Source of the DNA: Lentimicrobium sp.
GTDB taxonomy: Bacteria; Bacteroidota; Bacteroidia; Bacteroidales; Lentimicrobiaceae
Assembly (NCBI GenBank): GCA_024709105.1
Contig: JANJXJ010000039.1
Coordinates: 1 to 59,593, forward strand
Reading direction: 5' to 3'
DNA: 59,593 nt
Within the stretch, counting starts at the first letter, position 1, and each line of letters starts with the position of its first letter. This document shows positions 8,361 through 50,475 of the stretch, in pieces. The notes under the pieces are model-generated. The model was not told the DNA's origin and searched no databases. It was given only the letters and a program-made list of their open reading frames with translations. A program made the translations under genes and the position numbers.

Positions 8361-10748
8361 TTAGAAAGGATAACCAATTCCAAAGTTCCAGTTGATGTTT
8401 TTCATCTGAAATTTGGCAAAATTCAGCCATCGCTTTTCCGGCAGCTGACCTGGATCGTAAATTGGCAAACCACCATCAATTCTGAAAATAAAAAAACTAA
8501 AATCAAATCTGAACCCCATACCTGCATCAAGTGCAAGAGATTTAAACAATCTTTCAGGTTGAAATTCCCCATTGGGATAAGATTCATTCTCTTTCAATAA
8601 CCAAATATTTCCCGCATCTGCAAAAATTCCGCCAGTAAGGAAGCTGTACATAGGGAAACGATACTCAACATTACCCTCAAACCAGATATCACCAACCCTT
8701 TCAAAACCGGTTTTATTGATGCTGTAATATTCACCGGGGCCTAATGAACGCACCTGCCATCCACGCAGGCCATTTGCACCGCCGGCAAAAAAAGCTTTTT
8801 CAAAGGGCAATGCTTCTGAATTGCCATAAGGAACTCCAATCCCGAATGCAGTACGAAACACAAGGTTCTGGTCTTTGCCAGTGGGATGATAAAACCTTAA
8901 ATCGAAATCGGTGCGAAAATATTGAGCATACCTGATACCAAACAGTGTGTAGTTCCCGTCTTCATTTATTTCACCGGAACTCAGGCTGCTATATAGATTA
9001 AGTATATTGCCTGCCGTTTCTACATTAAAACGAAAGAAAACATGATTATCCTTGACATTGAGCTCCTGGTTGTTAAAAATAAACGAATACCTTGCTGCCA
9101 TTACCAGATGGTCAGTATATTGACTTAGGAAGCGGGGATCGCTCAATTGGCTCAGATAATCATTAAAGGTACTGTCGCGGGTAATACTCACCGAACTGAT
9201 TTCAAGAGGTGTAAGCATATGCCTGACAGCAAGTGACGCATTCCATTCATACCCGAAAGTCAGGTAGCTCAGGTAGCGGGCATATGAGTTTTTTCGCAAC
9301 TGGTAATTAAACCCGAGTGATATGGCGGTTTTCGCTTTGGTATTTATGCCGAGTTTTTTTACCGGGAATGGGGTAAGCAGCATCGGAAAATCAATTCCCG
9401 ATTCAATACCAGTTTCCAGGGTGTTGAATATGGTGTTGTTTTGTGAAGTCTCTATTCCCAGATCGGGTGCAATTTCAAATGATGAACGGGCTTTTAGTCT
9501 TAGTGTTTCGGCTCCTCTAAAAATATTTCTGTTACGATAATTTATACTGCTGCCCAATCCAAGATATCCTCCGGCATTGGTACCCTCTGCTTCAATGGTA
9601 AACATATTTACATCTGCTCTCACCATTCTTATATCGTAATCTAGTAGTCCGTAACCCCTTGCCTGGTTTTCAGCATTCTCAGAAGGATTGACATTAAGAG
9701 AAACAAAACGGGTTAGCCCAAGATTCTGCAACCGGTTGTAGGAATAATTGATGTAGTTCTGATTAAAAGGTTGACCGGGTTTGAGAAACAAAGAGCGCGC
9801 AATAACAACTGGCCTGAGCCTGACCTCAGAACGGTAAATCTGATAGAAATCAGCCCTCATATTTAAAGATGTATCAATACCTGACCTATACTCCAGAGTA
9901 TCAAATCCCTGCTGATCTGACAGCTGGTCGCCAAAATTGGAATTAACAAAAATCCGGTTAACAAAATAACGTATATGTTGGGGTGCAGAAATTGTATCAC
10001 CTTTGGGTGATAAAAGAGGCCTGATGTTTTCAATCCTTATATTTACATCAGCACTTAAAGTCGCTTTGGTAGTATCTATCTCAAAAAAGACATACTCACG
10101 GGAGAATGCATAATAGCCTATATCTCTCAGTTCTTTGGTGATCCGCTCACGTTCATCACGTATAAGATATGCATCGTATTGATTCCCTGTCTTTAACAGT
10201 GAAGTTTTTCCAATATTATTCATAAAAAATCTCAAACTGTCATCTGCAATTATGTACGTGATATTCCCAAACTTAAATGGCTCTGAAGTGTGTGTATAAT
10301 ATGTTGCTCTTGATTTGTCTTTTTTCAAATTAATGCTGCGACTAACTGTTGCACCAAAATAACCCTTATTGTTCAGATAAATAGTCATTGGTGTCAGAGA
10401 GTTATCAACCAGGGCCGAATCAAGTACTGATGGTGGCCTTCCTAGTAGCTTCTTGAAAAAAACTTTGGTTTTGGTTTGTTTGCCCACTGACAACCATTCA
10501 TACATCAGCACCCCATTGCGCACAACCCCTAAAAACCTGGGGGTGGGCTTGGGTTGTGCAAAATTCATCAGATCGTAATTGCTAATCCCCTTTCGGTCAA
10601 CAACCACATTATTCGAAACATGATGATAACCTCCCCTGCGTTGTATTCTTTTCGAAGGGCTGCATGATGCAATGGCAAAAATCAGAAAAAGAAATATAAA
10701 AAGCCGGAAGTAATTACCGAAAAAACTTTCTGGCTTAAATTTTCGCAT
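8361..10748 (-). CDS. BamA/TamA-family outer-membrane lipoprotein (TamL-like)
   Basis: 795 residues. The N-terminus is a lipoprotein signal with Cys29 (lipobox AIASC followed by SPSKR), which separates it from ordinary BamA. Residues about 40-330 form POTRA-like modules (LLSPKGD and RSLFLKPGQPFNQNYINYSYNRLQNLG is typical of a POTRA/FtsQ-like repeat), and the last 400 residues are a surface-antigen (D15) barrel with FFAGGANGLRGWQVRSLGPG and a C-terminal aromatic residue (NFGIGYPF). In Bacteroidota this lipoprotein form is called TamL and works in outer-membrane protein insertion, usually with TamB. No tamB is in this window. It is followed directly by the helicase gene. Confidence 0.85.
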   Translation of the reverse strand: MRKFKPESFFGNYFRLFIFLFLIFAIASCSPSKRIQRRGGYHHVSNNVVVDRKGISNYDLMNFAQPKPTPRFLGVVRNGVLMYEWLSVGKQTKTKVFFKKLLGRPPSVLDSALVDNSLTPMTIYLNNKGYFGATVSRSINLKKDKSRATYYTHTSEPFKFGNITYIIADDSLRFFMNNIGKTSLLKTGNQYDAYLIRDERERITKELRDIGYYAFSREYVFFEIDTTKATLSADVNIRIENIRPLLSPKGDTISAPQHIRYFVNRIFVNSNFGDQLSDQQGFDTLEYRSGIDTSLNMRADFYQIYRSEVRLRPVVIARSLFLKPGQPFNQNYINYSYNRLQNLGLTRFVSLNVNPSENAENQARGYGLLDYDIRMVRADVNMFTIEAEGTNAGGYLGLGSSINYRNRNIFRGAETLRLKARSSFEIAPDLGIETSQNNTIFNTLETGIESGIDFPMLLTPFPVKKLGINTKAKTAISLGFNYQLRKNSYARYLSYLTFGYEWNASLAVRHMLTPLEISSVSITRDSTFNDYLSQLSDPRFLSQYTDHLVMAARYSFIFNNQELNVKDNHVFFRFNVETAGNILNLYSSLSSGEINEDGNYTLFGIRYAQYFRTDFDLRFYHPTGKDQNLVFRTAFGIGVPYGNSEALPFEKAFFAGGANGLRGWQVRSLGPGEYYSINKTGFERVGDIWFEGNVEYRFPMYSFLTGGIFADAGNIWLLKENESYPNGEFQPERLFKSLALDAGMGFRFDFSFFIFRIDGGLPIYDPGQLPEKRWLNFAKFQMKNINWNFGIGYPF

Positions 10749-24452: not shown

Positions 24453-27400
24453 TCAGGGTTTTGAAATTATTATTTTGGCTGTTCGGGTTGATGTATTTCC
24501 GTTTCTGTCGCGAACTTTTAAACGAGCCAGATAAAGTCCTGAACGGGCGGCACTGCCATCGGCTAACCGGCCATCCCATTCAATACCTCCGGCAACATAC
24601 CCTTCCGATTGTACTTTAAAAGGGCCGATATATCTTGCCAACTGGCCAGTAGAAGTAAATATTTCAAGTTCCACATCGAAACGGCCATCGAAAAGATTAT
24701 GTCCAAATCTGATGGTAACTTTATCGGGAGATGGATTTGGAAATACAAGGACTTCATCAACATCAAGAAGAATATTTCTTCTGACTTCAAATTTCAAAGT
24801 CGCAGAAGCCGAATTGTTAAAAATATCCCATGCTTTGAGCGTAAGCTCATGCGGGCCTTCGGGAAGATTAAAATACTGATATAATAACCTGCCCTTCTGG
24901 TAACTATCTACATCTGAAACATAAAAATCATTCAGGACTACTGAGCTGTAAGAATCACCATCTATCGTTGCCACAATATCGTGTCCAATCCCATTCCCAA
25001 TAGTATTGATTCCGCTTTCATCATAGAAAAAGGCAAGCAACTTGGGATACTCACTGGTAAGTCCGCCATCAATAAAGTTGGTGTCGTTCATAAATATTCT
25101 GATCTGAGGAGGAGTAAAATCTGTTTGTAATTGATTTCCGGAACCTCCAACAAGAATATTATCATCCATTCCATTGGCATCATCCACTCCATCCGTTGCA
25201 TAGTAACTGATTTTACCTCTTCCAAAGCTGTAATCTATATCTTTAGGAACCAGAAAAGTGAATTCAAACTGCCCGTTCCTGACCGATGCCTTGCCCTGAT
25301 AAATGATATTTTTATGCATTCTGAATTCGGTAACAAAGCTCTGCGGATCCTGCCCAAGGGTTTTGATTCGAGCAGGCTTGTCGAATATCTTCACCTGCAA
25401 TTCGCCATTAAATCCACTTATGGTCATCTCATCAGCATTTCTGACTTCGCCGGTAATTTTAACTTTACGCATGGCATAAAGCGTGTCAGAAGGCTTTCCT
25501 GTATTTGCATCGGTAATGGAGGTGGTGACTACCTGATACCTTGGCAACGGCATGCGAAGCGAAGGATCACCAAACAGGGTCAGATGCCTTGTATTCGCCG
25601 AATAAACCAACTGATTTTTGGTATACTTTAAAATATCGCCAATCCTTGGAACATTGTCATATCCTTTGCTGAATGCTGTATCGGCAAAGCTGAGATTAAG
25701 GGCTGCATTGGTATTGGAAAATGCCAGCCTGGTAGTGGTAATCATATTTAATGCTCCGCCGTTGGGATTAAGAAATACCAGTTCACCTGCCGAGGTAAGT
25801 GCCGGATTATCGAAACGAGAAAATTCGCAGGTGGCTGTAAAAAATAAACCCATACGATCATAGTTCGTCCATGCATTAATGTCGGCTATTTCAAGTATAC
25901 GTTCATCAGCCCAGCCTACTTCCCCACCATGGCCTATATAATTTACCAGCAATGCGCCTTTCTCAACACGACTTACCAACTCACGGTTAACTTCAGGATA
26001 AAGACTGCCCCCCGGAGTAGAAACCTGCTTAAACGCATCAAAATAAAGTTTTTCAATATTGAATTCAGGGTTGCTTTCTGATATTTTGGACGCAAGCTGC
26101 TCCGCCTGATTCAGGTGTGTATTATTGTTTTCATCATCTGCTATTACAATAAGTGTGTTTCTCCAGTCGCCATGGGTCTTTGCCTCATTGTGCATATAAG
26201 TAATGGTTTTGTCAACCACCACATTGGCCTGGTTTATATTTCTAACCGGGAATCGGCCCACTGCCAGATCAAGCATACCGGCAGCAGTTTCACCGCCTTC
26301 ACCTTTGTCAAGCATCACAAAGTAGTCGTCAGACAGAAATGAGTTGACCGGAGTTACCGAATTTGCACTTTGATATGTTGGAACAAAATTGGTATTGCCG
26401 GCAACCCGGTTTTTAAGATCGTAAGAGGCATTACCAAACAGGAGCAGGTATTTGGGATAGCCTGCATTTTTACCTCTGTCATACAGCATCTTCATAAAAT
26501 TCCTGATGGCTGTAATATCCTGAACTCCTGAAGAAAATTCATTGTAAATTTCGGGCAAAGAGACTACAATTGCCGATATCTGCCCCATGTTATTGTGAGC
26601 AGCAGCGAGTCGTTTCGCTGGTGTTGCAAATTCGGGCGGGCTTATGATGATCATATCATAATTACCAATTGCATGTAAGTTCTGATTGGGAACTTTAGCG
26701 CCGGTTTTAATACTCTTATATTCACTTCCATCAATCGCAACAAAGGTTTTAAGTCTGTCTGTTGAGCTTCTGAAAGAAATTACACCTCCTGTTTTATTAA
26801 AATCAACGAGGCCAACATTCATTGGGTCTGAAATATCCCATATCTCAGTAACTGCAGCGGCATCACTTAAGGTAAATTGTGTAATACGCTCCGCTGCAAT
26901 GGTTTTCGGATCGCTGAACTCAAACTGCCCGCCTGTAAATTTGAGGTAACTCCTGACATTAAGGGCTACAAAGTCGAGCCAGCCAATATCTGTGCTTGAC
27001 GAAGGGTTAAATCTCACCTGAATATCCAACTCAGCTGTCGGAGGCACAAATGATGCAGAAGTTGTGAGTTCATTAGCAAATCCATAATCGCTTGTTATTT
27101 TCGCCAGTGTGCTGTTGGAAACGGCTTGACCGTTAATCAGTATATTAAAAGTAACATTGCCAGTAACCGACCGTGCGGCAATGCCATACCTGAGATTGGC
27201 TGCCACATTCGGAACAATATTTCTAAAACGGGCCTTTGGAAGCGTAACAGTACGGGTATAAAAATCCAATTTATCACCAAACCATTTGCTTCCGCTTTTC
27301 AGCAAATTATAAAGTTCTTTTTCATAGACATATACATCATTATATTCTTCGGTTGAATAATTTGCCGGAGCTGATGGTGATGAAATTGTAGAAATCCTCC

Positions 27401-28277
27401 GTCCCGCTCCCTGATCAACATTTACAAAATAACAGGCTTCATCAGCATACAGATGAGTAGTATGCTCCAAACGGTTTGAGAATGGGTTGTTCTTCCATGT
27501 TTGAGTACCCTCTCCATAAAACAAAACATAGTCTCCCTGTTTAAAAGCCCCGGGCGATGCTGTAACAACTTTTATGGCAGCCTCATTCAGATCGTCGGCT
27601 CGCAGATCACCGACCACGTCATCCAACATGGCACCACCATTCCCAAAAACTCTGATATTGTCCGGGTTTAGACCATTGGTATTAATTCCAAGTTTTTTTA
27701 AATCGTCATAGGTGATTTTGTAAATACCACTTTCTCCAACATAAATTTTATACCAGTTTCCTGAAGAAAGCACAGAGTTCTGAGCATAGCTGAATGTGGT
27801 CTTTTCCAGTACTGAGGCTTCACGAACTTCAGTTGCAATAGAATACGAAGATAATTTAGCGGCAACTTTTTTCAATGGATCTATCCCAAAAGGTAACACA
27901 GTCACCATAATAACATCCTTACCGGCTTGTCGCTGTATTGTATAATTCAATTCAGGGGCTTCGGGCAGTGAAATGTCTTTTAAAATACGCTGATCTTCTT
28001 CTGAAAAAGGACTATAAACCAAATCAATCAGCTTTACTGATTCAACGGTATGCCCGTCTGCAAGCGAGATTGATGTAACTGAAAATGGCAACAACACTTC
28101 AGGCAGGAATGGGTATTGAGCACCCGAAAATGAAACAGCAGGTACTACTTCAATCCCTCCAAGCATCAGATCAACCGGCTCCTCCCAATTCAGTGTAACT
28201 TTTTTAAGGTTTTGCCCTGTAAGTAAAACCGAATAAAAGAAAAGAGAAACCAAAATGATGAAACTATATTTTTTCAT
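24453..28277 (-). CDS. porU: Type IX secretion sortase PorU (first of two tandem copies)
   Basis: 1274 residues. Signal peptide MKKYSFIILVSLFFYSVLLT, then an N-terminal beta domain containing the PorU motif VLSSGNWYKIYVGESGIYKI. The gingipain-like C25 peptidase domain (about residues 540-920) has the catalytic His783 (YIGHGGEVGW) and Cys817 (TATCEFSRFDNP). The C-terminus (EVLVFPNPSPDKVTIRFG to the end) is a T9SS-type sorting-domain-like module that PorU keeps. PorU cuts the sorting signal from T9SS cargo and joins the cargo to A-LPS at the cell surface. It is 210 bases downstream of the second copy and 2 bases upstream of the sugar kinase. Which copy is the main sortase cannot be told from sequence. 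Confidence 0.9.
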   Translation of the reverse strand: MKKYSFIILVSLFFYSVLLTGQNLKKVTLNWEEPVDLMLGGIEVVPAVSFSGAQYPFLPEVLLPFSVTSISLADGHTVESVKLIDLVYSPFSEEDQRILKDISLPEAPELNYTIQRQAGKDVIMVTVLPFGIDPLKKVAAKLSSYSIATEVREASVLEKTTFSYAQNSVLSSGNWYKIYVGESGIYKITYDDLKKLGINTNGLNPDNIRVFGNGGAMLDDVVGDLRADDLNEAAIKVVTASPGAFKQGDYVLFYGEGTQTWKNNPFSNRLEHTTHLYADEACYFVNVDQGAGRRISTISSPSAPANYSTEEYNDVYVYEKELYNLLKSGSKWFGDKLDFYTRTVTLPKARFRNIVPNVAANLRYGIAARSVTGNVTFNILINGQAVSNSTLAKITSDYGFANELTTSASFVPPTAELDIQVRFNPSSSTDIGWLDFVALNVRSYLKFTGGQFEFSDPKTIAAERITQFTLSDAAAVTEIWDISDPMNVGLVDFNKTGGVISFRSSTDRLKTFVAIDGSEYKSIKTGAKVPNQNLHAIGNYDMIIISPPEFATPAKRLAAAHNNMGQISAIVVSLPEIYNEFSSGVQDITAIRNFMKMLYDRGKNAGYPKYLLLFGNASYDLKNRVAGNTNFVPTYQSANSVTPVNSFLSDDYFVMLDKGEGGETAAGMLDLAVGRFPVRNINQANVVVDKTITYMHNEAKTHGDWRNTLIVIADDENNNTHLNQAEQLASKISESNPEFNIEKLYFDAFKQVSTPGGSLYPEVNRELVSRVEKGALLVNYIGHGGEVGWADERILEIADINAWTNYDRMGLFFTATCEFSRFDNPALTSAGELVFLNPNGGALNMITTTRLAFSNTNAALNLSFADTAFSKGYDNVPRIGDILKYTKNQLVYSANTRHLTLFGDPSLRMPLPRYQVVTTSITDANTGKPSDTLYAMRKVKITGEVRNADEMTISGFNGELQVKIFDKPARIKTLGQDPQSFVTEFRMHKNIIYQGKASVRNGQFEFTFLVPKDIDYSFGRGKISYYATDGVDDANGMDDNILVGGSGNQLQTDFTPPQIRIFMNDTNFIDGGLTSEYPKLLAFFYDESGINTIGNGIGHDIVATIDGDSYSSVVLNDFYVSDVDSYQKGRLLYQYFNLPEGPHELTLKAWDIFNNSASATLKFEVRRNILLDVDEVLVFPNPSPDKVTIRFGHNLFDGRFDVELEIFTSTGQLARYIGPFKVQSEGYVAGGIEWDGRLADGSAARSGLYLARLKVRDRNGNTSTRTAKIIISKP

Positions 28278-28299
28278 TAGTAAGTAATTTTAAATTTAA

Positions 28300-28321
28300 A
28301 AGGAATTTCATTTAATTCCTT
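28300..28321 (-). terminator. Terminator-like hairpin between the two porU genes
   Basis: A perfect 8-bp stem AAGGAATT/AATTCCTT with a 6-base loop is followed on the minus strand by TTTAAATTT. It sits 22 bases before the start of the downstream porU and 166 bases after the end of the upstream one. The stem is A+T-rich, so termination would be weak or conditional. Confidence 0.35.
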
Positions 28322-28487
28322 CCGGAAAACCTTATTGTTCGCATCGCATTCGGATAACCTTGTTACCAAAGTGGCAAATTTGCTCACAACATTAGTTAAC
28401 CTGTTCGTTTTAAACCAATTATTTTCAAACAGTGTTTCATGCTTGTTTGAGATAACTCAGGCGCAACAAAAGCAGCTCCGGAAGTCA

Positions 28488-31400
28488 TCATTTAATCAAT
28501 GAAATTTTTACCGAGCTTACTGCCTCATTTCCAAACTTATCTTTAACCCGAAGTCGTCCTATGTAAAAACCGGCAGCCAGCGGGCTCCCGTTTCCGCCCC
28601 GGCCATTCCATTCAAACGCCGGAGTCCTGTATCCATCAGCAAATATAGAACGATTAAGCGTTGCTGCTCTAACTCCTGATAATGAAAATATATCGAGGGT
28701 AAGATCCAGCGTTTCGCCTGCCTTATTGTGTTCAAAAAGAAATACTGCTGATTCTGAAACAGGATTTGGAAAAACTTCAAACCCGCCAAGCACAAGGCCA
28801 GAAGATGAGCTCACCACAAAATCAATGGATGCTTCAGATGAGTTATTGTTTACATCCCAGAGTTTGAGTTTCAAAGTATGTTTTCCGGGGCTCAGGTTTT
28901 TAAACGGAAATGAGATTCTTCCGCTTTTGTAGGTTCCTAAGTCAGCTTCATAAAATTCGTTGAGTACGTAGGGTAATTCGGTTTTTCCATCCAATACTGC
29001 AACAATATCGTGTCCTATGCTGGTTCCAATGGTATTTATTCCGCTCTCGTCTTTTATATGTGCCAGTAAAACCGGGTTTTCGTCAGTATATCCGCCTGAC
29101 TTAAACAATGTATCATTGATAAACAGCCTGATTTCCGGACCTTCATTATCGGTAATTGCATTTTTACTGAATCCGCCAACTATCAGATTATCAAAAGAAC
29201 CGGAAGCGTCAGCATCTCCGTTTGTGGCATAATAACTAATCTTACCCAAACCATACTGATAGATGATGTCACGGGGCACTATAAATGAAAAGCTGAAATG
29301 TCCATCCTTAACAACAGCCTTTCCTTTATATATTATGTTGCGTCTGAGTCCAAATGTCATGGGAGTTGTTCCATCAGTACCCAATGTTTTTACAACACTC
29401 TCTTTATCAAAAATAAGCGAAGTGAGAACCCCCTGAAAATCACTGAGTAAAAGTCCGTCGGTAGTTCCAACATATCCGGAAATAGTAACTTCGCTCATTG
29501 CTTTGAGTGTATCGGGGATGGCTTCAATTTCTCGCCCATTAATGCTGGTAGTAAAAACCCTGTGTTCGGGATAAGCCATTTTCATGGCAGGATTACCTAG
29601 CAAAATAAATTTTTTACCGTTGTTATCTGAACCTGAAAGTTTTTTTGATTCTCTGATTAAGTCTCCCAGATAAGGCATTCCATTATCATCAGGTTTAAGT
29701 GCAAGATTGTAAAAGTTTCGTGCCAGGGTAAAATTAGGAGTGCCGAATGTTGGCCTGGATGTTGTAAACAAAGCCACTCCTCCTCCTTTGGGGTTAAGAA
29801 ATACCAATTCACCTCCTGAGACTCTTAAAGGATCGTCATATCTGCTGAATTCACAGGTCGCTGTCATAAATACCGGGAGACTATTGTAATTAGTCCAGGA
29901 GTTGACATCATTATTTTCAAGAACCCTCTCCAAAGACCAACCTGTTTCGCCTCCATGCCCTGTGTAATTAACAATTAACGCACCTTTTTCCATGCGCTGA
30001 TTGATGGCCTTATTGGCTTCAGGAATGCGCTGCCCCCCCGGAGTAGATATTTGGGGATAAGCATCCAGAAATATCTTATCAGTAATATAATTTTTATAGG
30101 TAGTGTCAATCATGGTAGCAAGTTCATCGGCCTGCCTCATGTGATCGTTCCCGTCTTCATCATCAGCAACAAAAACAATATAATTGCGCCAGTCACCATG
30201 AACTTTTTCCTTTGCAGTAACATAATGAATAATCTTGTCAACAGCATTTTTGGCTTCTTCCGTTGTCTGAACTACAAACCTTCCTATACCTATATCTACA
30301 ACATCGGTAGAAAGCCCCCCCTCTGCGCTATCAAAACTGCCAAAAAAGTCATCGGTTGCATATGATGAAACCGGATGCAATGATTCAACCGACTGAAAAG
30401 TTGGAATAAAATTGGAATTTCCAGGAATTATATCTTTGAAATCAAATGAAGCATCACCAAAAAGTAATAAAAATCTGGGCTTATTCCACTCATCAGCTTT
30501 AGTATAAAGCATTCGCATAAAATCACGAATGGCCGATATATCCTGAGCCCCTGAGGAAAATTCGTTGTAAATGGCCTGGGGCTGAACCACAAGGACACTA
30601 AAGTTATCGTGTTGGGCATGAAATCCGGCCAGGCGGTTTGCTTCTTCCGAAAAAAGCGGATGTGTAATTATAACCATGGTATGCGAAGGAGTTCCATGAA
30701 GATTTTGATTGACCACTTTCTCTACGAATTCTGGCTTCAAAAATGAGCCTTCATCCCCAAGGGTATATTCTCTGATCTGATCTGACAGGGCCTTAAATTT
30801 CAAACCACTACCATTTGATTCAGGAATTATTTTTCCCGGATTAAGCGGGTCGGTAACATCCCAAAGCTGAGCAACATTACCAGTTCCGCTGATATTAAAT
30901 TCTGCTACTCCTGATAACCTGAATTTCCTGAAGTTCATTAAACCGCCATCAAACCTCAGCTCAGCAGGCATATTAATCTCAATAAAATTAAGCCACCCGA
31001 CAGAGGCTCCGGATGCTTTTACGAATTTAAGATTAAATGTTTCAGGCCTTGCTGAAACTTCGGTTGTATATGTTTCGGTTGCCATACGGGCGTATGCTGT
31101 ATTTGGCTCAATTATGATAGGTGAAACCCAGGCGTTAAATGTCTTTCCAAAGGCACTCAGGGTGAAACTGCTCGAATTTACCGAACGGGCAGCAACACTG
31201 AGTCGTATTGAGGCATTAGCATTTGCTGCAGGGCTAACAGAGGGTATGGAATAGTTTCTGGAGGTGACTACATCAAAAATATCCCCAAACCATTCTTTTC
31301 CGGATTTAATCAGATTATACTGATCCGTATGGTAAACGTACCTCCAATCAAAAGTATTTACAACAGTACTGGCAGCCGATTGAGGCTGAGGAAACACTTC

Positions 31401-31940
31401 TATTCTTTTTCCTGCTCCAGGCCGCACACTTATAAAATAATATGTTTTTTCGGTGTAAAGATGCTTTTTGTGGTTAAAGATGCCTGTTTGGGTGTTGTAT
31501 ATCCACTCTGTAGGCTCAACTCCGTAAAACAAAATATAATCTCCCTGATCAAAAGTACCGTCACCTCCATCTGAAACATGAATAGCCATTTCCGGAAGGT
31601 CGTCGTATCTGATATCGCTGTTGCGCTCTGGAATCATTCTGCCACCATATCCATGAACCCGTATTGAAGATGATGCCAATCCATTTACAGGAATCCCCAT
31701 AGAATTCAGGTCTGAAAAAGAAAGTTTGTGAATTCCTGTGGACGAAACAGCAATCCGGAACCAGTCTCCTGATGCTAAAACAGAGTTTCCGGCATATTCA
31801 GGGGTGGCCTGGTTTGATTTTTCCCATGCAGATTCTGCTGCTTTATTCAGCTCTCCAATGGTTTGAGCCGAAGCTACAACGGGCAGAAAAAGCAAAGACA
31901 AATTAAAGAATATAGAGTATATGTAGTTGTTTTTTAACAT
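28488..31940 (-). CDS. Type IX secretion sortase PorU-like protein (second tandem copy)
   Basis: 1150 residues, close to the 1158 of P. gingivalis PorU. Signal peptide MLKNNYIYSIFFNLSLLFLP... cleaved after VASA-Q. The same order of parts as its neighbour: VLASGDWFRIAVSSTGIHKL, then the C25 domain with His662 (YTGHGGETGW) and Cys696 (TATCEFSRYDDP), again 34 residues apart, then a C-terminal module from EVFPNPVSESAVFLFEHN. All catalytic residues are intact. It is divergent from the porP/sprF-gldJ pair, the usual porU neighbourhood, so it may be the canonical PorU. No promoter with both boxes is seen upstream. Confidence 0.88.
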   Translation of the reverse strand: MLKNNYIYSIFFNLSLLFLPVVASAQTIGELNKAAESAWEKSNQATPEYAGNSVLASGDWFRIAVSSTGIHKLSFSDLNSMGIPVNGLASSSIRVHGYGGRMIPERNSDIRYDDLPEMAIHVSDGGDGTFDQGDYILFYGVEPTEWIYNTQTGIFNHKKHLYTEKTYYFISVRPGAGKRIEVFPQPQSAASTVVNTFDWRYVYHTDQYNLIKSGKEWFGDIFDVVTSRNYSIPSVSPAANANASIRLSVAARSVNSSSFTLSAFGKTFNAWVSPIIIEPNTAYARMATETYTTEVSARPETFNLKFVKASGASVGWLNFIEINMPAELRFDGGLMNFRKFRLSGVAEFNISGTGNVAQLWDVTDPLNPGKIIPESNGSGLKFKALSDQIREYTLGDEGSFLKPEFVEKVVNQNLHGTPSHTMVIITHPLFSEEANRLAGFHAQHDNFSVLVVQPQAIYNEFSSGAQDISAIRDFMRMLYTKADEWNKPRFLLLFGDASFDFKDIIPGNSNFIPTFQSVESLHPVSSYATDDFFGSFDSAEGGLSTDVVDIGIGRFVVQTTEEAKNAVDKIIHYVTAKEKVHGDWRNYIVFVADDEDGNDHMRQADELATMIDTTYKNYITDKIFLDAYPQISTPGGQRIPEANKAINQRMEKGALIVNYTGHGGETGWSLERVLENNDVNSWTNYNSLPVFMTATCEFSRYDDPLRVSGGELVFLNPKGGGVALFTTSRPTFGTPNFTLARNFYNLALKPDDNGMPYLGDLIRESKKLSGSDNNGKKFILLGNPAMKMAYPEHRVFTTSINGREIEAIPDTLKAMSEVTISGYVGTTDGLLLSDFQGVLTSLIFDKESVVKTLGTDGTTPMTFGLRRNIIYKGKAVVKDGHFSFSFIVPRDIIYQYGLGKISYYATNGDADASGSFDNLIVGGFSKNAITDNEGPEIRLFINDTLFKSGGYTDENPVLLAHIKDESGINTIGTSIGHDIVAVLDGKTELPYVLNEFYEADLGTYKSGRISFPFKNLSPGKHTLKLKLWDVNNNSSEASIDFVVSSSSGLVLGGFEVFPNPVSESAVFLFEHNKAGETLDLTLDIFSLSGVRAATLNRSIFADGYRTPAFEWNGRGGNGSPLAAGFYIGRLRVKDKFGNEAVSSVKISLIK

Positions 31941-32053: not shown

Positions 32054-32206
32054 TAAACAATCTGTGAGAGTTACCGGTTTAAGAAGCAATAACGGCATTT
32101 TTGCAGCGTTATTGTTACAAATTTTAAGGAATTTTCACATTTTTCAATCGGGCGGTCATCATTTTAAAAATTATTCGTAATATTGGCTGCTGAAAAAACG
32201 AACGAC

Positions 32207-33199
32207 ATGAGAATTAAGCTGAGCCTGTTCATGTTGCTGATATTGGCCTTCCAGGCGGTATTTGCACAGGACGCCTCCTTTTCACAGTACTACGGAAACC
32301 CCATGTATCTTAACCCTGCACTGGCAGGTTCTAAGATTTGCCCTCGTCTTACCCTGAACTATCGCAACCAATGGCCGGCAATACCTGCAACTTATGTCAC
32401 TTATTCCGCTTCATACGATCAATTTATTGACGCCATATCAGGTGGAATTGGACTTATGGTTGTTTCCGACAACCAGGGAGATGGCATGATTACCAACACT
32501 TCGGCCAGCGCCATGTATTCTTTCAGGCTCAATCTCTCCAAAAACATGACTCTGAATACCGGAGTTCAAGCCACTTACACCCAGAATAAACTAAACTGGA
32601 ATAAGTTCATTTTTGAGGATCAGTTGCTTTGGGGCGACATCAATAACCCTCCTCCTACCCAGGAAAGTCCGCCCGACAGGCTTAATATCGGAATGATTGA
32701 CTTTTCAGCCGGTATGCTTGTGGGATACAAAGAGAGCATGTATTTCGGTGTAGCCGCACACCACATGAATCAGCCAGATAACTCATACTATAGCACCAGC
32801 GATAGTAAACTCGACATGAAACTTACTGCACATGCAGGCGCTCTGATTGACTTAAGAGATGGCTTGGGTGGTGGTGACATTGAGGATATGAGTATTTCAC
32901 CTAACATCATGTACCAGCAACAAGGCAAATTCCATCAATTAAATGTGGGAATGTACCTTAATATTTATCCTATGGTTATTGGTGGCTGGTTCAGACACAA
33001 TTTTGAAAATGCAGATGCTGTTATCGGACTAGTCGGGTTTCAGCATGCAAAATTTAAAGTAGGATACAGTTACGATTACACCGTTTCGCGATTAACCAAT
33101 AATGCAACAAACGGTGCACACGAAATAAGTTTTGCCTGGCAATTCGATTGCGGACAAAAAACTTTCAAGCACAAGGCAATAAAATGCCCCAGGTTTTAG
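32207..33199 (+). CDS. PorP/SprF family type IX secretion membrane protein
   Basis: 330 residues from ATG 32207, chosen because it gives the signal peptide MRIKLSLFMLLILAFQAVFA-Q; the frame opens 24 bases earlier. The mature start DASFSQYYGNPMYLNPALAG is the hallmark of the family, followed by CPRLTLNYRNQWP and about ten amphipathic beta strands. PorP/SprF proteins are outer-membrane barrels; some anchor a particular surface-exported adhesin or cargo. gldJ follows after 32 bases, in the same transcript. Confidence 0.92.
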   Translation: MRIKLSLFMLLILAFQAVFAQDASFSQYYGNPMYLNPALAGSKICPRLTLNYRNQWPAIPATYVTYSASYDQFIDAISGGIGLMVVSDNQGDGMITNTSASAMYSFRLNLSKNMTLNTGVQATYTQNKLNWNKFIFEDQLLWGDINNPPPTQESPPDRLNIGMIDFSAGMLVGYKESMYFGVAAHHMNQPDNSYYSTSDSKLDMKLTAHAGALIDLRDGLGGGDIEDMSISPNIMYQQQGKFHQLNVGMYLNIYPMVIGGWFRHNFENADAVIGLVGFQHAKFKVGYSYDYTVSRLTNNATNGAHEISFAWQFDCGQKTFKHKAIKCPRF

Positions 33200-33231: not shown

Positions 33232-34722
33232 ATGACCAGTCACAGGAACATCTATCTGAAGTTAGCTTCTTTTGCTGCTGTTGCCTTATTTGCTACCTCT
33301 TGTGGTAATAAAGATTTATCCAATACAACCGGTTGGGAATACAATAATCCCAAAAATGGTGGTTTTCAGGTCAATACCAAATACCAGGAACAGCCATTAG
33401 GGCCAGGTTTGGTAATGATTGAAGGCGGAACTTTTACAATGGGCAGGGTTACTGACAACCCTATGTATGATTGGGACAACATCCCCCGGAGGGTTACAGT
33501 TCCTTCGTTCTACATTGATGAAAGAGAAGTAGCCAACGTTGATTATGTTGAATATCTGTATTGGCTTAGCCGCGTTTTTGGAACTGATTTCCCTCAGGTT
33601 TACCGCAATGCGCTTCCCGACACTCTTGTTTGGCGCGAAAAACTGGCATACAACGAGCCTTTGGTAGAAACCTACTTCAGGCACCCTGCATACCGCAACT
33701 ATCCGGTAGTTGGAGTGAGCTGGGTTCAGGCTAATGAATACTGCCTTTGGAGAACCGACCGTGTAAATGAAATGCTCCTTATTAAAGAAGGTATTCTTGA
33801 TTTTGACCCTGACCAGCGCAACGACAATAACTTTAACACCGAAGCTTATCTTGCAGGGCAGTATGAAGGTCTTGTAAATAAGCCACTCAAAGACCTGAAT
33901 CCCAGCGGCACCGGCGAACGCCGTGCCCGCCTCGAAGATGGCATCATGGTACCTAAATATCGTCTGCCAACCGAAGCAGAATGGGAATTTGCTGCTATGG
34001 GCCTTGTAGGTAATACATTGTATGAGCGTGTAGTAGAAAGAAGAGTATACCCCTGGAACGGTACAATCGTACGTTCTGACCAGAAAAAATATTACGGTCA
34101 GTTCCTCGCCAACTTTAAACGCGGCAGAGGAGACTATATGGGCGTCGCTGGAAGCCTGAATGATGGTGCAGACCTGCCTTCAGAAGTGGCTTCTTACTGG
34201 CCAAACGATTATGGCCTTTATAACATGGCTGGAAACGTTGCCGAATGGGTGCTTGATGTTTACCGTCCTCTTTCGTTCGAAGATGTTTCAGACTACTCTC
34301 CATTCCGCGGTAATACATTCACCACCAAAGTTACCGATGAAGAAGGATTTCTGGCTCCAAAAGATTCTCTCGGAAGAATCCGTTACCGCGAAGTTACTGC
34401 CGAAGAAAGCAAAGACAGATTTAACTACAGAAGTGCAAAACAATCCAATTATCTTGATGGAGATTATCAGTCAACTATCAATCCCGACTGGACTTCTGCT
34501 CCTGCCGATACACTCAATACAACCAATCTGATGTATGAGTTTGGCAAAACATCTTTAATCTCTGATAAATCAAGAGTATATAAAGGTGGTTCATGGCGCG
34601 ATCCGGCTTATTATTTAAGCCCTTCGGCCAGACGATATCTGGATGAAAATCTTTCAACCAATTATATAGGTTTCCGTTGTGCCATGGGGCGCGTTGGCGG
34701 AGCCTATGGAAAAGGGAAATAA
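33232..34722 (+). CDS. gldJ: Gliding motility/T9SS lipoprotein GldJ
   Basis: 496 residues. Lipoprotein signal with Cys24 (ALFATSCGNK). The GldJ N-terminal pattern TTGWEYNNPKNGGF precedes an FGE-sulfatase (SUMF1) fold that begins GPGLVMIEGGTFTMG (about residue 58) and contains YRLPTEAEWEFAAMG, YNMAGNVAEWVLDVY, YKGGSWRDPAYYLSPSARRY and IGFRCAMG. GldJ is an outer-membrane lipoprotein that stabilises GldK and the secretion/gliding complex; the enzymatic role of the fold is lost in this family. GldK/PorK has a similar fold, but the GldJ-specific N-terminus and the downstream murF point to GldJ. Confidence 0.92.
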   Translation: MTSHRNIYLKLASFAAVALFATSCGNKDLSNTTGWEYNNPKNGGFQVNTKYQEQPLGPGLVMIEGGTFTMGRVTDNPMYDWDNIPRRVTVPSFYIDEREVANVDYVEYLYWLSRVFGTDFPQVYRNALPDTLVWREKLAYNEPLVETYFRHPAYRNYPVVGVSWVQANEYCLWRTDRVNEMLLIKEGILDFDPDQRNDNNFNTEAYLAGQYEGLVNKPLKDLNPSGTGERRARLEDGIMVPKYRLPTEAEWEFAAMGLVGNTLYERVVERRVYPWNGTIVRSDQKKYYGQFLANFKRGRGDYMGVAGSLNDGADLPSEVASYWPNDYGLYNMAGNVAEWVLDVYRPLSFEDVSDYSPFRGNTFTTKVTDEEGFLAPKDSLGRIRYREVTAEESKDRFNYRSAKQSNYLDGDYQSTINPDWTSAPADTLNTTNLMYEFGKTSLISDKSRVYKGGSWRDPAYYLSPSARRYLDENLSTNYIGFRCAMGRVGGAYGKGK

Positions 34723-34835: not shown

Positions 34836-36134
34836 ATGCATCTCACCAGTATTTCAGAAATTTACTCCATCTTCAAACAGCACCCTTACATAAGCACCGA
34901 TTCACGGATTGCTACTGCCGGAAGTATTTTCTTCGCGTTGAAAGGCGAAAACTTTGATGGCAATAAGTATGCACTTTCGGCAATTGAAAAAGGAGTAGCA
35001 TATGCTGTTATTGATAATCCCGAATATTACAATGGGAACAAAACCCTGCTGGTTGAAGACACTCTGAAAGCATTGCAGCAGCTGGCATCCTTACACAGAG
35101 AGAATCTTAACATACCAATCATTGGTATAACCGGATCAAACGGAAAAACCACTACCAAAGAATTAATTGCGGCAGCGCTTTCGGCCAGATTTAACACACA
35201 TGCCACACCGGGGAATCTGAATAATCATATCGGTGTTCCTTTAACTGTTTTATCTGTTGGCCCTGAAACTGAAATTGCAATCGTTGAAATGGGAGCAAAC
35301 CATGTTGGCGAAATTGCTGCTCTGTGTAAAATTGCCAGACCAACACATGGAATAATCACCAACATTGGCAAAGCTCATCTTGAAGGTTTTGGCGGGCCCG
35401 AAGGAGTGATTAAAGCGAAAAGCGAGCTCTATCAGCATTTATATAATTTTGGTGGAACTGTTTTTGTTAATTCAAACAATCCTCTTCTGATGAGTTTATC
35501 CGATAATCTGAACAGGATTCTGTTTGGATCTGATGAAAACCTCACCTATTCTGCAAAAGTCTCAGACCACGGGCCTATGCTCAAGGTTGATGTGATTAAA
35601 CCGCTTGAAATGGTGATCCAAACAAAACTAACAGGTAATTACAATTTCGAGAATGTTATGGCAGCATTCACAATTGCCAGCCATTTTAAGGTAAACAGTG
35701 AACTCATTAAACAGGCGATTGAAACATATGAGCCAAAAATGAACCGCTCTCAGGTACTTGAAACATCAAAAAACACCCTTATACTGGATGCATACAATGC
35801 CAATCCTTCAAGTATGGAAAGTGCAATAGGTAATTTTAAATCAATAAAAAAGCTACCTAAAGTTATGATATTAGGCGACATGTTTGAACTTGGAGATGCT
35901 GCGCCGGAAGAGCATACTGCAATACTGAAAATGGCCTTGATGTCAGATGCAGAGAGGATTATAACAGCCGGACAGCATTTTTACAATGCCGCAAAGGATT
36001 TTGAAAATATTCAGGCGTTTCCTGATGTAGCAACTTTGAGAAATCAGCTTATTAATGAACCAGTGCAAGGATGTTTGGTTCTTATCAAAGGTTCCAGAGG
36101 GATGAAACTTGAAACCATTACTGATTTACTTTAG
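34836..36134 (+). CDS. murF: UDP-N-acetylmuramoyl-tripeptide--D-alanyl-D-alanine ligase
   Basis: 432 residues. The Mur ligase order is clear: N-terminal substrate domain with TDSRIATAGSIFFALKGENF, ATP loop IIGITGSNGKTTTKELI (about residues 95-111), central motif EMGANHVGEIAALCKIARPT, and the third domain with LDAYNANPSSMESAI and LGDMFELGDAAPEEH. The enzyme adds D-Ala-D-Ala to the peptidoglycan precursor in the cytoplasm. Its position next to gldJ is the same as in some other Bacteroidota. anmK starts 1 base after its stop codon. Confidence 0.95.
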   Translation: MHLTSISEIYSIFKQHPYISTDSRIATAGSIFFALKGENFDGNKYALSAIEKGVAYAVIDNPEYYNGNKTLLVEDTLKALQQLASLHRENLNIPIIGITGSNGKTTTKELIAAALSARFNTHATPGNLNNHIGVPLTVLSVGPETEIAIVEMGANHVGEIAALCKIARPTHGIITNIGKAHLEGFGGPEGVIKAKSELYQHLYNFGGTVFVNSNNPLLMSLSDNLNRILFGSDENLTYSAKVSDHGPMLKVDVIKPLEMVIQTKLTGNYNFENVMAAFTIASHFKVNSELIKQAIETYEPKMNRSQVLETSKNTLILDAYNANPSSMESAIGNFKSIKKLPKVMILGDMFELGDAAPEEHTAILKMALMSDAERIITAGQHFYNAAKDFENIQAFPDVATLRNQLINEPVQGCLVLIKGSRGMKLETITDLL

Positions 36135-49431: not shown

Positions 49432-50475
49432 ATGTTTAGATTTGAACATACAATATTTCTTAATCTGATGCTGGCTTTACCACTGCTGGTTATCCTATAT
49501 TGGATGTATCTGAGGTGGAAAAAGAGTGTAGCTCAGAAAATCGGCGACGCCGGGGTGGTAAAACGTTTGATGACAGATACATCTCCGGCAAGACAACACA
49601 TCAGATTTATCCTGCTTATGCTGTCGCTGGCAAGTCTTCTGCTCGCATTAGCCAACCCACAGATTGGTTCAAAGCTCGAAAAAGTACAACGTAAAGGAGT
49701 TGATCTTGTTATTGCTATTGATGTTTCGAATAGTATGCTTGCACAGGATATACAGCCCAGCCGGCTTGAAAGAGCAAGACAATCTATTCTCAGGCTGATA
49801 GATGATCTGGAGAATGACAGAATCGGTTTGATTGTCTTTGCCGGGAAAGCCTATACACAATTGCCCATCACCACAGATTACAGCGCAGCAAAAATGATGG
49901 TATCAACCATTAAGCCTGATATGGTTCCGACACAGGGAACTGCGATCGGGCAAGCCATTGAAATGGGGATGGCATCATTTAAAGAAGAAGATGGTGGTAA
50001 AGCAATAATTGTGATCACCGATGGTGAGAATCATGAAGATGATGCCATAGGAAAAGCAAAAGAAGCTGCAGAAAATGGTATCAGAGTTTATACTATCGGT
50101 ATGGGTCTTGCAGAAGGTGCTCCAATTCCTGAGATCAAAAACAATCAGATAACAGGATTCAAAAAAGACAGATCAGGAAATACTATAATAACAAGACTCG
50201 ATGAGTCTATGTTACAAAACATTGCTGAAGCAGGTAACGGAATCTATGTGCGTGCTAGTAATTCACAGGCGGGGCTTAAAAAGGTGTTTGAAGAAATTGG
50301 CAAACTGGATGAAAGCACCTTCGAGAGCTTTAATTATGCCGATTATGACGACAGATTTCAATATTTTATTGCACTATCCCTGCTATTTCTTGTAATTGCT
50401 TTTATGCTTAACGAGCGCAAAAGCAAGTGGGCCGATAAAATTAAAATGTTTAACCCCGAAGCCAGGCAGCCATGA
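49432..50475 (+). CDS. batB: BatB, von Willebrand factor A domain membrane protein
   Basis: 347 residues with the same plan as BatA: N-terminal membrane segments (IFLNLMLALPLLVILYWMYL, FILLMLSLASLLLALA), VWA domain with AIDVSNSMLAQD, VPTQGTAIGQAIEM and VITDGENHEDD, and a C-terminal membrane segment (FQYFIALSLLFLVIAFML). The MIDAS residues are complete, so metal-dependent ligand binding is plausible. batC begins inside its stop codon (4-base ATGA overlap). Confidence 0.9.
   Translation: MFRFEHTIFLNLMLALPLLVILYWMYLRWKKSVAQKIGDAGVVKRLMTDTSPARQHIRFILLMLSLASLLLALANPQIGSKLEKVQRKGVDLVIAIDVSNSMLAQDIQPSRLERARQSILRLIDDLENDRIGLIVFAGKAYTQLPITTDYSAAKMMVSTIKPDMVPTQGTAIGQAIEMGMASFKEEDGGKAIIVITDGENHEDDAIGKAKEAAENGIRVYTIGMGLAEGAPIPEIKNNQITGFKKDRSGNTIITRLDESMLQNIAEAGNGIYVRASNSQAGLKKVFEEIGKLDESTFESFNYADYDDRFQYFIALSLLFLVIAFMLNERKSKWADKIKMFNPEARQP

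Follow-up and report, generated by a model that had tools for sequence, protein, structure and literature searches.

Two diverged PorU-type sortase paralogues encoded in tandem in Lentimicrobium and other Bacteroidales

Why should a bacterium with a type IX secretion system (T9SS) keep two sortases of the PorU type, encoded next to each other? The question is raised by a contig of 59,593 nucleotides (JANJXJ010000039.1, or G000:C91 in our numbering; the whole stretch is hereafter called the window) from the 4.47-Mb assembly of a Lentimicrobium genome of the order Bacteroidales (G000), in which two minus-strand open reading frames, U (upstream) and D (downstream), lie head to tail, 210 bp apart (Table 1). 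In the passages of PMC11285876 and PMC10202324 that deal with it, porU is treated as a single gene in Porphyromonas gingivalis, and a single PorU was also found in most genomes of a phylum-wide draw, among the matches listed. How PorU selects cargo for release versus attachment is stated as an open question in the relevant part of a review (PMC10202324), and a long-diverged natural pair of sortases, apparently on one shuttle and one glycan carrier, would let this question be asked. Sequence comparisons indicate that U and D are two diverged PorU paralogues, real and conserved as a pair, and apparently previously undescribed. A single old tandem duplication is strongly favoured as their origin, although it is not formally proved. 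In our assessment, there is an even chance that they act as two active, co-expressed sortases with one attachment machinery, differing in cleavage site or acceptor.

The initial annotation had described both frames as C25-type sortases related to PorU, and the profile searches bore this out. The Peptidase_C25 profile scored 369 bits in D and 354 bits in U, and at full length both reached about three times the 420-bit cut-off of NF033707, the NCBIfam model of PorU, with the C-terminal domains of U and D falling within the match and the profile covered to its end. No third PorU was found in G000 by profile search, as the next match after U and D reached merely 50.9 bits. Membership in the PorU2 family (NF052324) was rejected, the scores of U (182.2 bits) and D (175.9 bits) contrasting with a cut-off of 450. 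The histidines and cysteines that had been proposed as catalytic occupy the aligned catalytic positions: His662/Cys696 of U aligned in register with 6ZA2, and the residues of both copies were in register with 154 other PorUs, 153 of which keep both. The dyad was retained in 42/42 D and 44/44 U, and among 70 PorUs outside the two groups the only one without the cysteine was a fragment. AlphaFold models of U (predicted local distance difference test score, pLDDT, 85.3) and of D, the latter starting at residue 160 (pLDDT 88.7), both had 6ZA2, a dimeric latent PorU, as their first match in the PDB (E 9.2e-79 and 8.7e-86), over 1186–1200 columns. The template modelling (TM) scores of 0.49–0.54, with root-mean-square deviations of 17–19, are low probably because the domains sit differently.

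The domain layout that had been taken as common to both copies is shared only in part. Both have a plausible Sec signal at the N-terminus (judged by eye), the C25 domain and the C-terminal part, but the extra N-terminal domain belongs to D only: the long-form profile NF052318 (cut-off 40 bits) matched D residues 1–147, and no match to it was found in U at E 0.001. Since the U start lies only 242 bp from the divergent PorP frame, and U runs from the signal peptide into the PorU core, the domain is missing in U rather than misread. Short U frames (1145–1169 aa) occur in four of the 17 Lentimicrobium genomes with an uncut U (G000, G003, G007 and G008). The nearest U relatives of G000, namely G012 and G018, have long frames, and the other short-framed U group elsewhere in the tree; judged by frame length, the domain would thus have been lost at least twice within the genus.

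U and D share 40% identity over 1137 aligned residues. A first tree was built from 156 PorUs, frames shorter than 870 aa (contig-end fragments and split genes) being excluded. In it the upstream and downstream copies fell into two clades, with local support of 0.997 and 0.996; they comprised 44 U and 42 D, with both copies present for 40 genomes. Six of the 30 phylum-draw loci L038–L067 and six of L139–L147 were used as rows, while duplicates (L001–L037 except L023, L031 and L032; L133–L138) and L186, which has no PorU, were left out. A full maximum-likelihood analysis of 67 rows (G312, G019 and the two copies from G453 having been removed from 71) recovered the D clade with support of 100/92 and the U clade with 95.5/97 (Shimodaira–Hasegawa-like approximate likelihood-ratio test/ultrafast bootstrap), each spanning many families. 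In this analysis the upstream copies of G458, G037 and G021 joined U, and G520_L169 moved from U, its place in the first tree, to D. A recent duplication into near-identical copies, one of the two outcomes by which the initial annotation would have fallen, is rejected by this identity and by the separate clades.

The pair is widespread in Bacteroidales. At least two PorU matches were found in all 19 Lentimicrobium genomes of a relatives search, G000 included. An order-wide draw of 198 genomes yielded PorU in 172, and 52 of them had at least two matches among the rows listed, some of these being split genes. In the phylum-wide draw (392 genomes, each at least 90% complete, with the best two candidates per genome scored), PorU was found in 270 genomes, and among the matches listed ten genomes besides G000 had two, low scores marking some as split genes. 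U and D occur together in 42 genomes from 19 family codes (f107, f169 and 17 codes already paired in the first tree), and they form a U–D tandem at 38 loci, in the genus and in 17 further family codes, which is far beyond chance. With the start codon taken as the first methionine within 80 residues, the gap between the two genes measured at most 85 bp at 36 of these 38 loci, the remaining two being 125 bp (G474) and 210 bp (the window); such near-abutting genes suggest one transcript. The Bacteroidota-type promoter pattern TANNTTTG had no match in the U–D gap of the window, nor within 250 bp upstream of U; at the other U–D loci it occurred just sporadically.

The surroundings of the genes are conserved as well. 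The typical order around a single copy is murF-gldJ-porP divergent from porU-porV, and in pair genomes murF-gldJ-porP is divergent from U-D, which replace the single porU beside porP. In the window gldJ and porP likewise adjoin the pair, and the neighbourhood by which PorU is recognised (gldJ, porP, porV) is present. Among recognised genes, which are what our gene-order listing covers, so that small unknown genes between them would stay invisible, porV directly follows D in 18 pair genomes, which belong to 14 of the 17 non-genus family codes. The exceptions are f102, f123, f165 and Lentimicrobium itself; the porV of the window, on the strand of the pair, is found about 10 kb further downstream, with pfkB, an acyltransferase, upp and other genes between.

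No genome was found that keeps one of the two copies and has lost the other. Where lone copies were seen (G002, G015, G454 and G520), the partner lies on another contig; in G004 the partner is cut at the contig end, and G583 has a second match whose sequence was not fetched. Loss of D in G591, the only genome of the same family with a single match in the order draw, was rejected, as a broken start of D adjoins its U; this copy (L209, G591:C81, 1–1636) consists of two frames cut by the contig end, either an assembly error or a true break. In G012, three PorU matches form a triple U-D-D array (L127, G012:C2:7000-26000), and its two D copies are themselves diverged (synonymous divergence, dS, ~1.7), which shows that the third copy did not arise just recently. 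The tree also holds other duplications, whose copies belong to neither the U nor the D clade: at L079 (G038), L083/L084 (G052), L112/L113 (G414) and L172–L175 (G476, G550). An independent PorU pair on two contigs (L069, L070) was found in G020, from another Bacteroidales family; two matches to PorZ, separated by about 2 kb (L196, G020:C20), occur there too, so that the attachment step would have been doubled in another way.

The initial annotation had also proposed that the duplication is old, and an alternative is a duplication within the genus, made to look older by unequal rates. A constraint holding Lentimicrobium U and D together cost 72.7 log units in the full search, yet the approximately unbiased (AU) test of this grouping gave p = 0.051, just short of rejection. 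An earlier quick search had placed the constrained tree 36 units ahead of the free one (p-AU 0.757); as that free tree came from a short search, both searches were repeated more fully (40 iterations for the constrained and more than 200 for the free tree), which reversed the quick result. Site by site, the signal is uneven: D residues ~438–825 prefer U and D of the genus together, by 44 units (a value as low came up in 7% of column shuffles), whereas D residues 826–1230 favour the old split by 126 units. Trees built from each half of the protein placed Lentimicrobium U with the U of other families and D with their D, in both halves. In the first-half tree U was not monophyletic, with D and G501 inside it; many deep nodes of the half trees were poorly supported, and some rows were misplaced, for instance G030_d in the first-half tree or G509_u and G049 in the other. 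The AU value, the quick search and the first-half topology speak against an early split. A genus-level origin would, however, require repeated parallel duplication, as the U–D tandem occurs in 17 other family codes, and it has to contend with the threonine at U residue 731, found in 46/46 U of the full set but in only 1/67 other PorUs; we regard it as very improbable. Gene conversion as the main story was rejected, as 7% of shuffles match the mid-region signal and the half trees lack it.

Is only the sortase doubled, or the attachment step as a whole? PorZ delivers anionic lipopolysaccharide (A-LPS) to PorU, according to PMC8545088, and we counted PorV, PorQ and PorZ in a set of 60 genomes that includes 21 pair genomes (19 Lentimicrobium, G030 and G057). 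One canonical copy of each was found in G000 and in G057. In Lentimicrobium, a single canonical PorV (>350 bits) was found in 17/19 genomes (not in G002 and G015), a single PorQ (>250 bits) in 18/19 (not in G002) and a single PorZ in 17/19 (not in G003 and G004); the assemblies without one of these are 72–89% complete. In G030, PorV and PorQ were each found once, and PorZ as two partial matches on separate contigs, possibly one split gene. Weaker PorV-family proteins are present in pair and single genomes alike. None of the 21 pair genomes was thus found to have a doubled canonical PorV, PorQ or PorZ; doubling seems confined to the sortase, and a whole second attachment complex was rejected. 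The same counts speak against a second PorZ-delivered glycan and are compatible with differences in cleavage site or acceptor; the divided cargo preference or different attachment chemistry suggested in the initial annotation is a hypothesis here.

Both copies bear marks of continued purifying selection. The ratio of nonsynonymous to synonymous divergence (dN/dS) was 0.052–0.215 for both copies in seven genome pairs, some with shared genomes, and was saturated for an eighth pair and for the comparison of U with D. One dead copy is rejected by these low values together with the invariant dyad, in agreement with the earlier impression that neither copy looks dead. At the 95% level, 84 versus 74 of 368 C25 columns are conserved in the two copies. 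The equal spacing of 34 residues between histidine and cysteine, to which the initial annotation had drawn attention, is indeed present in both; it was also found in 46/46 U, 42/43 D and 54/67 other PorUs. This spacing is the norm of the family and says little about the pair, and we rejected it as a special sign.

We next compared the columns at which U and D diverge most, with the genus thinned to five of its 19 genomes. The top three columns all lie within C25: threonine at u731/d852 in 30/30 U against alanine or serine in 29/29 D, alanine or proline at u730/d851 in 29/30 U against leucine or valine in 29/29 D, and lysine at u777/d898 in 29/30 U against asparagine or histidine in 29/29 D. 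In the AlphaFold model of U, residues 730–731 lie in a loop that follows a C25 core strand, and they align with the conserved segment STINQSW from one of the gingipain-like C25 proteins that G000 also encodes. In gingipain R, the tryptophan that walls the S1 pocket presumably belongs to this segment. With so few residues near the active site fixed by clade, concrete positions for tests are at hand. According to PMC10202324, P. gingivalis PorU cleaves at T/E/D/N before G/A/S, and altering the wall of the pocket would be a plausible way to shift such a preference.

The reading that we prefer may be put together as follows. In an ancestor of many Bacteroidales families, the porU gene between porP and porV would have been duplicated once, in tandem and on the spot, with both copies kept since. 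U and D would probably be co-transcribed, judging by their spacing, and the T9SS would bring them to the cell surface, each by way of its own uncleaved C-terminal domain, where both would work with one shared machinery of PorV, PorQ and PorZ. Each would cut the C-terminal domains of its cargo by the His/Cys dyad and then release the cargo or hand it to an acceptor. A different wall by the substrate pocket would make the preferences of U and D for cleavage site or acceptor differ, and different subsets of cargo would consequently be anchored or released by the two enzymes. That such a division of labour at the active site is what keeps both copies seems to us to have a probability of about one half. 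Several observations pull the other way. Separation of U and D is complete at merely two columns and near-complete at a third, which is weak evidence for changed specificity. The path from the common node is longer for D in 35/40 genomes; D thus evolves slightly faster and may be somewhat relaxed. The partner counts cover the 21 pair genomes mentioned above, with the pair genomes of the order draw outside them. Finally, first-look counts of Por_Secre_tail candidates, of which at most 80 per genome were scored, show no visibly larger load of cargo in pair genomes than in their near relatives with a single PorU.

This last point bears also on dosage, that is, on two equivalent sortases kept for a large flow of cargo, which we hold to be distinctly unlikely. 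The many candidates in Lentimicrobium (89–248 per genome, first-look) and the third copy in G012 would suit it, but near relatives with a single PorU have as many or more (G043 364, G044 333 and G056 296, likewise first-look; G043 and G044 also carry PorU2), and copies that split long ago, with 40% identity and with residues next to the active site fixed differently in each clade, are not explained by dosage alone. A regulatory or structural heterodimer, in which one paralogue is a dedicated partner or inhibitor and U plus D are the working unit of one attachment complex, is the main rival, though likewise unlikely. It can draw on the latency by dimerisation reported for P. gingivalis PorU, where, according to PMC10202324, a hairpin of one subunit of the homodimer blocks the other, and on the title of 6ZA2 as a dimeric latent PorU; the near-abutting genes, the partners common to both copies and not found doubled, and the absence of any genome found with just one of the two fit it as well. 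A pure partner, however, would have no need of the intact dyad and the similarly conserved C25 domain that both copies have. More tentatively than the shared-machinery reading, one may picture an asymmetric, obligatory U plus D attachment complex in a broad Bacteroidales clade, with one enzyme setting whether or where the other cuts; this is doubtful, but if true, the anchor-or-release choice of a single PorU would be split between two dedicated enzymes.

How does the pair compare with known systems? P. gingivalis PorU (NF033707; 6ZA2) belongs to the same family by profile and fold and shares the His/Cys dyad, the gingipain-like C25 domain and the C-terminal domain; it is treated as one gene in the papers cited above, in contrast to the two paralogues of Lentimicrobium, D being distinguished by its additional N-terminal domain and U by the altered segment beside the active site. 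A second PorU-related family of Bacteroidota is recognised as NF052324, the 'putative type IX secretion system sortase PorU2'. Its open frames are, however, 1621–1733 aa long, and U and D fall far below its cut-off, as given above. PorU2 passed the cut-off in 7/60 relatives (L202–L205, from G029, G044, G026 and G050, plus G035, G043 and G022) and in 0/21 pair genomes, a difference that may be due to chance with only three pair families in the set. The three gingipain-like C25 proteins of G000 share Peptidase_C25 and a T9SS tail (Por_Secre_tail), but they have Propeptide_C25 and Peptidase_C25_C in addition and score 36.6–50.9 bits on the PorU profile, far under its cut-off of 420, which marks them as cargo rather than PorU; they are encoded at L206 (3155–6598) and L207 (2678–6508 and 6529–10449, adjacent to each other). 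The specialised PorP/SprF shuttles for cargo with type B C-terminal domains, as described in PMC12618676, are likewise T9SS parts multiplied for cargo-specific handling; there the shuttle is multiplied, whereas in Lentimicrobium it is the sortase, with the canonical PorV not found doubled.

The second outcome that would have told against the initial annotation was a wide occurrence of the pair already described; full-text searches of open-licence PubMed Central papers, which do not cover subscription papers, returned none that deals with paired PorU, judged by the listings; the one relevant mention of 'two PorU' there refers to two mutants, and the PorU2 of NCBIfam is a different family. Genomes annotated simply as carrying 'PorU' can conceal two distinct paralogues.

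Table 1. Positions of the PorU pair, its diagnostic residues and neighbouring genes in the window
Feature	Coordinates	Strand	Basis
PorU-U, upstream copy, 1150 aa, short form	28488..31940	-	NF033707 1281.6 bits; U clade; model best PDB match 6ZA2
PorU-D, downstream copy, 1274 aa, long form	24453..28277	-	NF033707 1260.2 bits; NF052318 49.8 bits; D clade; model best PDB match 6ZA2
U Peptidase_C25 domain, residues 422-788	29577..30677	-	Peptidase_C25 profile
D Peptidase_C25 domain, residues 542-909	25551..26654	-	Peptidase_C25 profile
U catalytic His662 codon	29955..29957	-	Alignment
U catalytic Cys696 codon	29853..29855	-	Alignment
D catalytic His783 codon	25929..25931	-	Alignment
D catalytic Cys817 codon	25827..25829	-	Alignment
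U residues 730-731, P-T (U clade mostly P/A, then T), diagnostic versus D	29748..29753	-	Column comparison
D residues 851-852, L-A (D clade L/V, then A/S), diagnostic versus U	25722..25727	-	Column comparison
U residue 777, Lys in 43/46 U, third diagnostic column	29610..29612	-	Column comparison
D residue 898, Asn/His in 43/43 D	25584..25586	-	Column comparison
D signal peptide and 'long form' N-terminal domain, residues 1-147; none in U of this genome	27837..28277	-	NF052318
U-D gap, 210 bp, longest among the 38 U-D tandem loci measured	28278..28487	.	Gap measurement
PorV (T9SS_OM_PorV, 493 bits; NF033710), sole canonical PorV found in the genome	12939..14201	-	Profile
PorP/SprF family protein, divergent neighbour	32183..33199	+	Profile
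GldJ	33232..34722	+	Profile
MurF, next gene in the conserved PorU neighbourhood	34836..36134	+	Profile

Elsewhere in the window, a TamL-type assembly lipoprotein is encoded at 8361–10748, and a VWA-domain protein at 49432–50475 lies in a run of plus-strand genes, its scores with the BatA/BatB models being below their cut-offs.

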